Source: Salinisphaera sp. T31B1
GTDB taxonomy: Bacteria; Pseudomonadota; Gammaproteobacteria; Nevskiales; Salinisphaeraceae
NCBI RefSeq assembly: GCF_040361275.1
Contig: NZ_APNH01000004.1
Location: forward strand, 310,001 to 374,000
Direction: 5' to 3'
Length of the DNA stretch: 64,000 bases
Numbering within the stretch: position 1 is the first letter of the stretch; every line of letters begins with the position of its first letter. The notes beneath the pieces were generated by a model, which ran no database searches, had not been told where the DNA came from, and saw nothing but the letters and a program-made list of their open reading frames with translations. Shown piece by piece: positions 1,026 to 50,105 of the stretch. Position numbers and translations under genes: made by a program.

Positions 1026-1511
1026 TCAGGTACCCGGCAGCGGGGCGCCGATGGTGCTTTCCCGAGCGCCGGGGCCATCGTCATAGGGCCCCAGTTCGTC
1101 GTCGTAAGGGCCGGGGCCATCGTTATCCGGGCCCGGTGAGACCTCGCTCGGCAGAGGGTTATCGTCGTCCAGTCCGGGGGCGCCGTCCATCACGCTGGCG
1201 GTGTATTCGTCATCGCCCTCGATCTGGGCGAGCTGGCCGTTGGCAAAGTACAGGTTCAGCTCGCTCTGGCGCACGTGCGCGCGTGGATCGCGATAATAGA
1301 AGACGTAGTCCCAGCGGTCCTTTTCGAAGCTGCTGTCGATGAGCGACGTGCCCATGACGTACTGGACCTGACGCTTGGTCATGCCGAGCTCGAGCTGACC
1401 GACGTTCTTCGCGGTCACCACGTTGCCCTGGACTACCGGTACCCGGAAGAAGACCGGCAGGCTGCAGGCGGACAGCATCAGCAGCGTGGCTAGCACGAAC
1501 AGTGTTCTCAT
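1026..1511 (-). CDS. bamE: outer membrane assembly lipoprotein BamE (SmpA/OmlA)
   Basis: BamE is the small lipoprotein of the BAM complex, which folds beta-barrel proteins into the outer membrane. The ATG at 1511 gives a lipoprotein signal with lipobox LSAC near residue 17. The BamE core follows: QGNVV, then LELGMTKRQVQYVMGTSLI, then WDYVFYYRD. Upstream in-frame starts would place charged residues before the signal and were rejected. After the core, roughly residues 105-161 form an acidic, proline/glycine-rich tail with repeated GPYDD-like units; the usual protein of about 110-120 residues lacks this. It lies downstream of recN on the same strand and has its own promoter-like sequence at 1573-1602. 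Confidence 0.9.
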   Translation of the reverse strand: MRTLFVLATLLMLSACSLPVFFRVPVVQGNVVTAKNVGQLELGMTKRQVQYVMGTSLIDSSFEKDRWDYVFYYRDPRAHVRQSELNLYFANGQLAQIEGDDEYTASVMDGAPGLDDDNPLPSEVSPGPDNDGPGPYDDELGPYDDGPGARESTIGAPLPGT

Positions 1512-1572
1512 ACGACCATAATCCCTGGTGGAACGACGGCCGGTGGCCGTCCGCGTCCGAGATGCGAACCGC

Positions 1573-46863: not shown

Positions 46864-46889
46864 GTTTGAAGAATAAACAGGAACATACC

Positions 46890-49016
46890 GTGAGCAACGT
46901 CACAGTAACCAGCAAGCAGACATTCCAGTACGGCGCGCACGCCGTGACCCTGGAGACCGGCGAGATTGCCCGTCAGGCCGACGGTGCGGTCAAGGTGAGC
47001 ATGGGCGATACCGTCGTGCTCGTCACCGCCGTGGGCAAGAAGGAAGCAGCGCCGAACGCCGCCTTCTTCCCGCTGACCGTCAATTATCAGGAACGCACCT
47101 ATGCCGGCGGCAAGATTCCGGGCGGGTTTTTCAAGCGTGAGGGCCGGCCGGGCGAAAAGGAAACCCTGACGTGCCGCCTGATCGACCGTCCCATTCGTCC
47201 GCTGTTCCCGAAGGGCTTTTATAACGAAGTCCAGATTGTCGCTACGGTCATGTCGGTGGACCCCGAGATCGATTCCGACATCCCGGCAATGATCGGCGCC
47301 TCAGCGGCTCTGGCGATCTCCGGCATGCCGTTTGCCGGGCCGATCGGCGGTGCGAGAGTCGGCTATGCCGACGGCGAGTACGTGCTCAACCCGAGCGCGT
47401 CCCAGCTCAAGGCAGGCGAGCTCAACTTGGTCGTCGCCGGCACCAGCGATGCGGTGCTCATGGTGGAATCGGAAGCCAAGCAGCTCTCCGAAGAGATCAT
47501 GCTTGGCGCCGTATTGTTCGGCCACGAACAGCTTCAGGTGGCGATCCAGGCAATCGAGAAGCTGGCGGCCGAAGCTGGCAAGCCGAGCTGGGACTGGCAG
47601 GCTGCACCCACCGATGAATCGCTCGCTCAGGCAGTCGAGCGGGTGGCCAAGGACGACGTGACCGCGGCCTACCAGATCGCCGACAAGCAGGATCGCGGCG
47701 CTCGCCTGTCCGAGATCAAGGAAGCCGTCGTAGCCGAGCTGGCCGTGGAAGAGGGCGAGAACGGCTGGAGCCGTGATGAGGTCAAGGGCGCGCTTGGTGC
47801 GCTCGAGAAGAGGACGGTTCGCTCGCGTATTCTCGAAGGCGAGCCGCGGATCGACGGGCGTGATACCCGTACCGTGCGCCAGCTGACCATCCGTACCGGC
47901 GTTCTGCCGCGTACTCATGGTTCGGCCCTGTTCACCCGAGGCGAAACTCAGGCGCTGGTCGTGTCGACCCTGGGCACCGGTCGGGACGCGCAGATGATCG
48001 ACGCCGTCGAAGGCAAGTACGACGATCCGTTCATGCTGCACTACAACTTCCCGCCGTATTGCGTGGGCGAAACCGGCTTCATGGGTAGCCCCAAGCGTCG
48101 CGAGATCGGCCACGGCAAGCTCGCCAAGCGCGCGATCATGGGCGTGCTGCCGGACCTGGAGAAGGAATTCCCCTACGTCATGCGTGTGGTCTCCGAGGTC
48201 ACCGAGTCCAACGGCTCATCGTCAATGGCTTCGGTGTGCGGCACGAGTCTGGCGCTGATGGACGCCGGCGTGCCGATCAAGGCACCGGTAGCCGGTGTGG
48301 CCATGGGGCTGATCAAGGAGGGCGACAAGTTCGCCGTGCTGACCGATATTCTCGGCGACGAGGATCACCTGGGCGACATGGACTTCAAGGTGGCCGGTTC
48401 CACCGAGGGCGTGACCGCGCTGCAGATGGACATCAAGATCGGCGGTATCACGCGCGAGATCATGGAAGTCGCACTGGACCAGGCCAAGGAAGGGCGGTTG
48501 CATATCCTGGGCGTCATGGCCGAGGCTATCGACAAGCCGCGCGAGGAAGTCTCGGAATGGGCGCCGCGTATCTTCACGATCAAGATCGATTCCGACAAGA
48601 TTCGTGACGTCATCGGCAAGGGCGGCGCGACCATTCGCTCGATCACCGAAGAGACCGGCGCGAGCATCGACATCGAGGACGACGGCACGATTCATGTCGC
48701 GGCAGTCGACAAGGAAGCCGCCGACATGGCGATCAAGCGGATCGAGGATATCACCCGCGATATCGAGGCCGGCCAGGTCTACGAAGGCAAGGTAGTGCGC
48801 ATCGTCGACTTCGGCGCGTTCGTCAACCTGGTGCCCGGACGTGACGGGCTGGTGCATATCTCGCAGATTGCCGACCACCGTGTGGAAAAAGTCAGCGACG
48901 AACTGTCGGAAGGTCAGATCGTTAAGGTCAAGGTGCTGGAAGTCGATCGTCAGGGACGTGTGCGCCTGTCGATGAAGGAGCTGGCCGAGTCGGAATCCGC
49001 CGACGCCGAGGGCTGA
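46890..49016 (+). CDS. pnp: polynucleotide phosphorylase
   Basis: A 3'-5' phosphorolytic exoribonuclease of the degradosome. 708 residues: two RNase PH domains ([29 protein letters not shown] in the first; [16 protein letters not shown] and [15 protein letters not shown] in the second), KH ([21 protein letters not shown]) and S1 ([31 protein letters not shown]). The start is taken as GTG 46890 because AGGA lies 7 bases upstream and the family begins there; the longer TTG frame overlaps the terminator. Confidence 0.97.
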
Positions 49017-49036: not shown

Positions 49037-49065
49037 AAAAGGCGCCTTCGGGCGCCTTTTTTTTT
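49037..49065 (+). terminator. Rho-independent terminator of pnp
   Basis: AAAAGGCGCC and GGCGCCTTTT form a perfect 10-bp stem with a TTCG tetraloop (49047-49050), followed by nine T in total. An ideal terminator. Confidence 0.95.
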
Positions 49066-49297: not shown

Positions 49298-49391
49298 AAA
49301 AAAAAGCCCCCTAGGGTAAGGGGGCAAAGTGCGAGAAAGGCCGTTAGGCCTTTCGGAGGAGATTAGGTTGTCAGCGTGTCTGCTGATGTTG
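49298..49391 (-). ncRNA. candidate trans-acting small RNA (about 94 nt)
   Basis: On the minus strand a near-consensus promoter is followed by a transcript of about 94 bases ending in a terminator. The RNA folds as follows: hairpin 1 (TCAGC/GCTGA), an unpaired stretch with CTAATCTCCTCC (about 49354-49365), hairpin 2 GAAAGGCC-TAAC-GGCCTTTC (49335-49354), then terminator hairpin GCCCCC/GGGGGC (49306-49325) and eight U. The exposed CTCCTCC is complementary to ribosome-binding sites. It contains no open reading frame worth calling. I do not recognise it as a known family. Confidence 0.6.
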
Positions 49392-49397
49392 CGTTGC

Positions 49398-49426
49398 AGT
49401 ATAGGGCCGTCTACGACTTTAGTCAA
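49398..49426 (-). promoter_or_regulatory. promoter of the candidate small RNA
   Basis: Minus-strand TTGACT (49421-49426), exactly 17 bp, TATACT (49398-49403): five of six matches to consensus in each box. The start would be near 49391. It lies 50 bases downstream of the phaR stop and reads away from phaR in the same direction. Confidence 0.75.
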
Positions 49427-49475: not shown

Positions 49476-50000
49476 CTAGTTATGACCCGTCGTGTCATCT
49501 TTAGTTTCGGCCGTGGTGCGATTTTCTGAAGTCTCCTCGGCTTTTTCGCGGCGCTTGAGGTTGGCGAGGAATTCGCGACGTACGGTCCGCCAGATGGGCA
49601 CCTGATACTGCGACAGCTCGCGGAGCGTCACCAACGGGTTGTTTGCGCCGATCAGCCGGCGCATGCGGTCCTTGAACTGCTGCTGTTGTTCGGAAAAGAA
49701 TTCCAGGGACAGCTCCAGATAGGAGCTGACCGTGCTCTGCATCGAGTCGCCGTAAAAGCGGATGATGTTGCGCAGCACTTCCGTACGGAATATCGGATCT
49801 CCGCCTTCTTCCTGCTCGCTGATCACCTGCAGCAGGATCGTGCGGGTGATGTCATCACCGCTGCGCTTGTCGATCACTTGAAAATCCTCGCCGCGGATCA
49901 CCAGCTGGCGGATATTTTCCAGCGTGATGTATCGGCTGACCTCGGTGTCGTACAGACGCCGATTCGGATACTTCTTGATGATCCGTTTTTCCTCACTCAT
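49476..50000 (-). CDS. phaR: polyhydroxyalkanoate synthesis repressor PhaR-type regulator
   Basis: A DNA-binding regulator of polyhydroxyalkanoate storage genes. The 174-residue protein begins with the diagnostic domain RIIKKYPNRRLYDTEVSRYITLENIRQLV, then the PHB accumulation regulatory segment TRTILLQVISEQE and helices around VLRNIIRFYGDSMQSTVSSYLELSLEFF, with a charged tail. ATG 50000 is chosen; ATG 50012 is possible. No pha synthesis genes are in the window, so its targets are elsewhere. Confidence 0.9.
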   Translation of the reverse strand: MSEEKRIIKKYPNRRLYDTEVSRYITLENIRQLVIRGEDFQVIDKRSGDDITRTILLQVISEQEEGGDPIFRTEVLRNIIRFYGDSMQSTVSSYLELSLEFFSEQQQQFKDRMRRLIGANNPLVTLRELSQYQVPIWRTVRREFLANLKRREKAEETSENRTTAETKDDTTGHN

Positions 50001-50105
50001 CGCGGGCCCCATCGTGTGCCAGGCAATGACTTGTTGCATTGCGGTATAACGATTGTGCCAGATCGTGTGCTTGTTTGGGCAGACGAAGGCGAGCGGTCGC
50101 CGGAC

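Follow-up and report, generated by a model that had tools for sequence, protein, structure and literature searches.

A predicted small RNA with an exposed anti-Shine–Dalgarno sequence and a PhaR-type operator, encoded between phaR and pnp in Salinisphaera and its relatives

Comparable described RNAs and the predicted RNA

Control of a CU-rich small RNA by the storage-polymer regulator PhaR is already known for MmgR of Sinorhizobium meliloti, which is the sole precedent for this wiring. MmgR (RF00519, alpha-r8) has a PhaR box at its promoter and a CU-rich single strand and, in those parts of the literature that were available, is tied to polymer storage, repressed by PhaR (AniA) and also under nitrogen control. 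Small RNAs with anti-Shine–Dalgarno motifs are represented by NmsRA and NmsRB of Neisseria meningitidis, which block the translation of metabolic genes; the accessible portion of the report describes them as RelA-linked, directed at TCA-cycle enzymes and adjoining lrp (PMC5362039). The consensus of RF02278, the toxic small RNA of Betaproteobacteria, places CUCCUCC near the 5′ end, followed by a hairpin and a terminator. Lastly, ncS35 of Burkholderia cenocepacia belongs to a phasin-bearing host, and a phasin-like gene was altered in an ncS35 deletion mutant; as far as the available text goes, ncS35 has been reported only from Burkholderia. Other literature was likewise available in part (PMC5760752, PMC8401924, PMC10888616, PMC9049629). 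Among the matches listed in the open-licence literature there was no PhaR-controlled RNA outside rhizobia, an absence that carries little weight, and no paper on small RNAs of Salinisphaera.

The window analysed here is a 64,000-nucleotide stretch of the genome of Salinisphaera sp. T31B1. On its minus strand, a sigma-70-type promoter, TTGACT-17-TATACT (49426–49398), consists of a -35 hexamer at 49421–49426, the TTGA of which is nearly invariant in alignment A1, and a -10 hexamer at 49398–49403. It is followed by a predicted small RNA of approximately 93 nt (49298–49391), supported by the promoter and terminator positions, the fold and the homologues, with a 5′ end inferred to lie 7–8 nt past the -10. 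A 5 bp hairpin (49371–49386), which differs among species, is predicted at the 5′ end, and the fold prediction leaves CUAAUCUCCUCC unpaired between this hairpin and a second, perfect hairpin of 8 bp, GAAAGGCC-UAAC-GGCCUUUC (49335–49354). The unpaired anti-Shine–Dalgarno sequence UCUCCUCC occupies 49355–49362. A linker, UCGCACUUU (49326–49334), leads into an intrinsic terminator (49298–49325) that has a 7 bp GC stem (49325–49306) and eight T residues after it, ending at 49298. The predicted RNA (49392–49299) has a folding energy of -35.1 kcal/mol (z = -5.9), and none of 200 shuffled sequences folded as well. The initial annotation had proposed this promoter, with a GC hairpin and eight U behind it, and both were located on the minus strand as claimed; its unpaired anti-Shine–Dalgarno stretch between a 5′ hairpin and an 8 bp hairpin is borne out by the fold. 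Its placement of the element downstream of pnp was correct but incomplete. The RNA does lie between pnp (46866–49016, plus strand; Pfam RNase_PH, PNPase, KH and S1 domains), a convergent neighbour with a terminator-like hairpin at its 3′ side (49037–49060, plus strand), and phaR, the PHA/PHB accumulation regulator gene (49476–50039, minus strand; PF07879, E 3e-30 to 3.9e-30; PF05233, E 2e-16), but it is also 3′ of phaR, and on the phaR strand.

A search of Rfam with the window RNA returned nothing at the gathering score, and six further loci (family members or look-alikes) gave nothing relevant, so that the earlier statement that this is no described family stands as far as Rfam is concerned. 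The best sub-threshold match was RF00519 (mmgR/suhB), at 23.1 bits (E 0.0066) against a cut-off of 41; RF02278 scored 17.3 bits against a cut-off of 50, and none of four genomes of the order searched with stricter filters matched RF02278 at E 0.01. Membership of either family was rejected on these scores, which lie far under the cut-offs, and on layout. In the RF00519 consensus the CU motif stands between the hairpin and the terminator, whereas in the window RNA it is 5′ of the hairpin, and the RF00519 alignment deletes five positions of the mmgR CU-rich stretch. RF02278 has its elements in the same order as the window RNA, but its hairpin and linker sequences are unlike those found here. The RelA link, targets and lrp neighbourhood of NmsRA and NmsRB also differ from what is seen at this locus, as do the neighbours of ncS35 in the available accounts; PhaR repression, described for MmgR, is inferred for the window RNA.

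Because consensus scans on their own came close to chance, with two promoter-like sites against 1.0 expected and seven terminator-like sites against 3.3 expected, the case for the RNA rests on conservation. Within the order, 71 of 85 genomes (the own genome counted) have a homologue, and none of 15 other genomes of the class does (BLAST at E <= 0.001 with a 161-base query against 99 relatives and the own genome; counts taken from the match table). When 84,980 species genomes were scanned for the exact pattern, 60 sites on 59 stretches were retrieved. Going by their titles, 49 stretches come from Salinisphaera, Nevskia, Solimonas, Sinimarinibacterium, Hydrocarboniphaga, Panacagrimonas, Algiphilus, Oceanococcus and their kin. 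The remaining ten have different or uninformative labels: six are bins named ‘Gammaproteobacteria’, three are single bins named Ectothiorhodospiraceae, Lysobacteraceae and ‘Bacterium’, and one is an isolate assigned to Endozoicomonas. Of the 61 loci made up by the window and the 60 scan sites, 46 have phaR upstream in the same orientation, 45 have pnp convergently downstream, and 40 have both. Some copies away from these genes have a phaR-side copy in the same genome (L038/L051 and L077/L082, paired by title).

The invariant part of the RNA is its core. TCTCCTCC, UCUCCUCC and, within the linker, TCTCGCAC are unchanged across 27 aligned loci, but the 5′ leader is not conserved; one copy outside the aligned set has the anti-Shine–Dalgarno sequence CCUCCUCC and the core stretch CCTCCTCC. 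All 53 distinct cores have a second hairpin of 7–8 bp and a predicted terminator stem of at least 5 bp. The anti-Shine–Dalgarno sequence and the first five hairpin pairs were fixed by the search pattern used to collect the cores. Pair 6 is G–C in 50 cores and A–U in three, and pair 7 is C–G in 52 and U–A in one, that is, two-sided changes in three sequences and one sequence, respectively. These pairs were counted per sequence, since a one-base slip at the CC(A)GAAAG indel affects both MAFFT alignments, A2 and A3, and left RNAalifold with only three pairs on A2. The one-base indel beside the anti-Shine–Dalgarno sequence argues against a coding role. In 51 full-length RNAs (92–170 nt), the mean unpaired probability of the anti-Shine–Dalgarno sequence was 0.78, and it fell below 0.5 in three. 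The initial annotation would have been refuted had relatives failed to keep promoter, CU stretch and terminator together; the comparison was run, and across the order the three are conserved together, along with the hairpin. Transcription is inferred, and there is very little doubt in our minds that this small RNA is real.

PhaR-type boxes at the RNA, phaR and phasin promoters

What the earlier reading of this locus missed is the PhaR-type operator and, with it, the link to storage granules. The 12 bp box TGCNNYGCARCR is present in 52 of the 61 small RNA promoters, where mononucleotide shuffles predict 0.08, and abuts the -10 in all 52 (TATACT in 45 of them); the exact box is missing in nine. 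In the window, the operator reads TGCAACGCAACA (49387–49398, minus strand), its first T being common to the -10 and the operator, and it fits the form of a PhaR box, with two GC steps 3 nt apart and a TGC-rich sequence. Two experimentally bound sites are available for comparison from partially accessible reports: in Ralstonia eutropha, PhaR binds a phaP1 oligonucleotide in which TGCGCCGCAACA is present (PMC3570403), and PhaR of S. meliloti binds the mmgR promoter at TGCACCGCAGCA, with the motif core NYGCRNYGCR (PMC12542648).

The sequence TATACTGCANYGCAACA occurs at 68 sites in 59 of the 85 genomes, against none for the reversed control. Among 32 of these sites that were inspected, 30 run to an exact TCTCCTCC within 180 nt, one does so with a single mismatch and one leaves the contig. 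Judged from sequence, this promoter looks private to the RNA. Exact TGCANYGCAACA sites number 13 in the window genome against four in the control and, apart from the one at the RNA promoter, two precede genes for a FabG-like reductase and a thiolase. The window genome also has CATACTGCAACGCAACA (L091, approximately 1501–1512, minus strand), with the same layout of -10 and box and no anti-Shine–Dalgarno sequence in the stretch behind it.

The phaR promoter of the window has a box of its own, CGCAATGCAACA (50032–50043, minus strand), after TATAC at 50048–50044, and the whole segment, TATACCGCAATGCAACA (50032–50048), repeats the layout of the small RNA promoter. As the longest-ORF start, 50039, falls inside this layout, the real start of phaR is probably the ATG at 50000 (MSEEKR...). 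A close form of the box was found at 31 of 43 phaR upstream regions, against 0.09 of 43 in shuffles, and was missing at 12. Upstream of short phasin genes of the order, the box TGCNNYGCARCA was present in 17 of 19 cases, which were our pick from a longer phasin list and not all of its members; it often directly follows the -10 and in others stands between the -35 and the -10. The idea that every phasin gene has the box was rejected and holds for short phasins only, as none of the 30 best-scoring long phasin-domain genes had it within 250 nt of the chosen start. The only phasin detected in the window genome is without it. Control of the RNA promoter by PhaR is, on this evidence, well supported and quite likely, with repression inferred and no binding data to hand.

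Proposed mechanism, candidate targets and competing explanations

Our data are consistent with a model that we judge likely as a whole, in which a PhaR-repressed, trans-acting small RNA blocks translation through its anti-Shine–Dalgarno sequence, most likely on uptake and catabolic messages. The RNA family, the operator, the neighbourhood and the link to the presence of PhaR come from sequence; transcription, repression by PhaR, pairing, the target class and any need for Hfq are inferred. Of the traits expected in an Hfq-dependent RNA, a U-rich terminator is the only one seen. Without storage polymer, PhaR would sit on TGCAACGCAACA, over the -10 and the start site, and RNA polymerase would be blocked. 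Polyhydroxyalkanoate granules, once formed, would titrate PhaR off the DNA (binding of PhaR by nascent granules is established in Cupriavidus/Ralstonia, according to the portion of the literature available), and the RNA, phasin and PhaR itself would then be derepressed together. The exposed UCUCCUCC would pair with Shine–Dalgarno sequences of the GGAGGAG type, block ribosome entry and lower translation. We consider this block of translation probable; the pairing is inferred, and there are no translation data. The likeliest targets would be messages for nutrient uptake and catabolism, in Salinisphaera those for TRAP, ABC and tricarboxylate solute receptors, so that the RNA would act as a storage-full brake.

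GGAGGAG-N2-9-ATG occurs at 40 sites in the window genome against ten in the control, and 14 of the 33 ORFs of more than 100 aa at such sites encode uptake components: six DctP, two DctM, TctC, NMT1_3, NMT1, Peripla_BP_6, one ABC ATPase and MadL. One of these, the site of the ABC ATPase (L258), can pair with the RNA over 14 consecutive nucleotides, provided that the second hairpin opens at its foot; a further GGAGGAG site belongs to the solute receptor gene (L259) immediately upstream. In another genome (G007), the 23 ORFs include 12 uptake genes, the majority of them for periplasmic receptors. Two further genomes, of family f2, gave seven ORFs with DUF1302 or DUF1329 (40 of 62 sites examined, yielding 30 ORFs of more than 100 aa, of which 15 were picked by eye for Pfam).

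The uptake theme is clear, but it may reflect the use of strong Shine–Dalgarno sequences by uptake genes. In a control set built on AAGGAGG, uptake receptors made up two of 14 unshared ORFs, and the comparison of 14/32 with 2/14 (one of the 33 left out) is borderline (Fisher p 0.052); uptake targets stay a proposal because the control test reaches no further, and the target classes were assigned after the fact. A background sample of 864 kb held two solute receptors of these families, neither with GGAGGAG; the hypergeometric figures for this sample assume 4000 genes. Solute-receptor families are thus rare and yet often have GGAGGAG, which cannot separate targeting from a preference for strong Shine–Dalgarno sequences. 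As an independent hint, in S. meliloti, where PhaR represses MmgR, approximately 30 % of the PhaR-activated proteins in rich medium belong to ABC or TRAP transport, according to the accessible part of the report (PMC12542648). Uptake as the main target class is the leading candidate, unproven, and our confidence in it falls somewhat short of even.

The same pairing potential could serve a broader end, with the RNA acting as a general damper of translation that titrates many ribosome-binding sites in polymer-full cells and slows growth, in the manner of the toxic anti-Shine–Dalgarno RNAs of Betaproteobacteria. The exposed UCUCCUCC would fit any GGAGGA site, the window RNA has its sub-threshold alignment (17.3 bits) to RF02278 and, in the part of the report available, nmsRB could not be introduced into Escherichia coli and nmsRA slowed the growth of E. 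coli (PMC5362039). However, duplexes with the canonical AAGGAGG sites are weaker than those with GGAGGAG, at a mean of -15.1 against -19.4 kcal/mol, and GGAGGAG start sites are few, even at 40 genome-wide against ten in the control. We regard such a general damper as unlikely, while keeping it in view.

Alternatively, the same PhaR-repressed RNA could limit phasin or other storage-polymer proteins. Published excerpts on MmgR of Sinorhizobium describe just this arrangement, a PhaR-repressed RNA that lowers the phasins PhaP1 and PhaP2, and the box common to the small RNA and phasin promoters is in keeping with it. The start regions of the short phasins nevertheless fit the seed poorly: in the 17 of 19 with a settable start, the longest run complementary to the order-wide seed was 4–7 nt, with duplexes of -9 to -16 kcal/mol, whereas, with the window seed, the GGAGGAG genes of the window genome give runs of 7–14 nt, a minimum of 7 being built into their selection. 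An MmgR-like role in limiting phasins accordingly seems improbable to us.

A different doubt concerns the regulator: some other protein might read the box, and phaR might merely be a neighbour of the RNA. There are no binding data in this organism, and in some Salinisphaera (four of 61 copies) an inverted repeat, TACGANNNTCGTA, lies at the promoter in place of the box. At the promoters of L032, L050, L073 and L085, the inverted repeat TACGAAAGTCGTA occupies the position that the PhaR box has in other species, an arrangement that, from sequence, suggests hand-over to another regulator; half of TACGAAAGTCGTA is present in the window promoter. Against this doubt, the box matches the two experimentally bound PhaR sites, occurs at phasin and phaR promoters, and is absent where PhaR is absent. 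PhaR (PF07879) was detected in 81 of the 85 genomes of the order. Three of the four genomes without it, G001 (99 % complete), G009 (87 %) and G013 (99 %), keep the RNA and lack the box (L073/L011, L085/L017 and L050/L015, respectively), and in the fourth, G010 (81 % complete), the RNA was not found. Speaking against a simple dependence, PhaR is encoded beside the RNA in G002, G005 and G007, yet the RNA has no box; G002 and G005 are without a box at phaR too (L089, L032). The box is further missing in L049 (one of its two copies), L051 (which has a near-match), L054 and L068. A regulator other than PhaR is, in our assessment, quite unlikely.

The possibility that the element is merely the shared terminator region of phaR and pnp with a stray promoter, for which the terminators expected of two convergent genes and the near-chance promoter scan could be cited, can hardly be sustained given the conservation of UCUCCUCC and the second hairpin next to a variable 5′ part, and the ten of 61 copies with neither gene within 3.2 kb, nine of which have the same promoter box nonetheless.

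Elements beyond the order and their biological meaning

A search with RF02278 over 369 genomes of the class matched 138 genomes at E <= 0.01, with only two members above the cut-off. One of these (L104/L248) has TGCGTCGCAGCA upstream of the -10 and PhaR in the genome; because of it, PhaR may also control some members of the toxic small RNA family. The second member (L103) comes from a genome with PhaR and has no box.

Thirty RF02278-like loci were fetched (L103–L132), and 24 of them are a different element, next to rplM-rpsI and on the same strand. This element (L105–L132) is a widespread anti-Shine–Dalgarno sequence, typically ACTCCTCCATCCTCCTTTGGTGG, followed by a GC terminator, and many copies have the common promoter TTGACA..TATTAGAAAAT..ACATACTGATT; its matches to RF02278 are sub-threshold. 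It shares the strand of the genes in all 24 loci where rplM was found and lies 15–398 nt upstream in 21; an open frame overlaps it in three loci, with the start unresolved. Its role could be that of a ribosomal-protein leader or of a small RNA in its own right.

The pattern GGAGGAG..TGYTGCRNNGCA matched 59 of the 369 genomes and, among the matches listed, these were mostly chance occurrences in GC-rich genes. Twelve stretches were taken, from which eight sites in five families were kept by eye on the basis of a promoter and a terminator, and stretches L249, L250, L252 and L253 were dropped. The anti-Shine–Dalgarno RNAs with a PhaR-type box and terminator fall in families f73 (three copies, two in tandem), f77, f92, f111 and f170. 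Stretch L243 has a tandem pair of near-identical anti-Shine–Dalgarno RNAs (2406 and 2686), separated by 280 bases and each provided with a PhaR-type box. A genome of family f112 (G190) was included for its RF02278 match with a box; its anti-Shine–Dalgarno sequence is CUCCUCU. In all, the combination of box and anti-Shine–Dalgarno RNA was seen in seven genomes outside the order, six of which encode PhaR; the seventh, G293, is 86 % complete. For comparison, PhaR was present in two of ten hand-picked genomes in which the RF02278-like element has no box.

Work on the control of storage polymers has mostly dealt with proteins. Throughout this order, an RNA encoded beside phaR appears to be under the command of the granule sensor, and such an RNA would make translation elsewhere in the cell depend on how full the carbon store is. 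As a tentative interpretation, which we would not yet press, the RNA could be a satiety signal, turned on when the filling store draws PhaR from the DNA to the granule, that shuts down carbon and nutrient uptake, by a circuit that arose repeatedly: as MmgR in Alphaproteobacteria, as the Salinisphaerales/Nevskiales family described here, and as other anti-Shine–Dalgarno RNAs with PhaR-type boxes in five or more additional families of the class. Because the circuit would have arisen more than once, PhaR together with an anti-Shine–Dalgarno RNA could be a general module. PhaR control of such an RNA would offer one possible account of the reported dependence of many S. meliloti transport proteins on PhaR, which may favour them by keeping down an RNA that represses them. 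The circuit lends itself to direct tests and is useful for bioplastic production.
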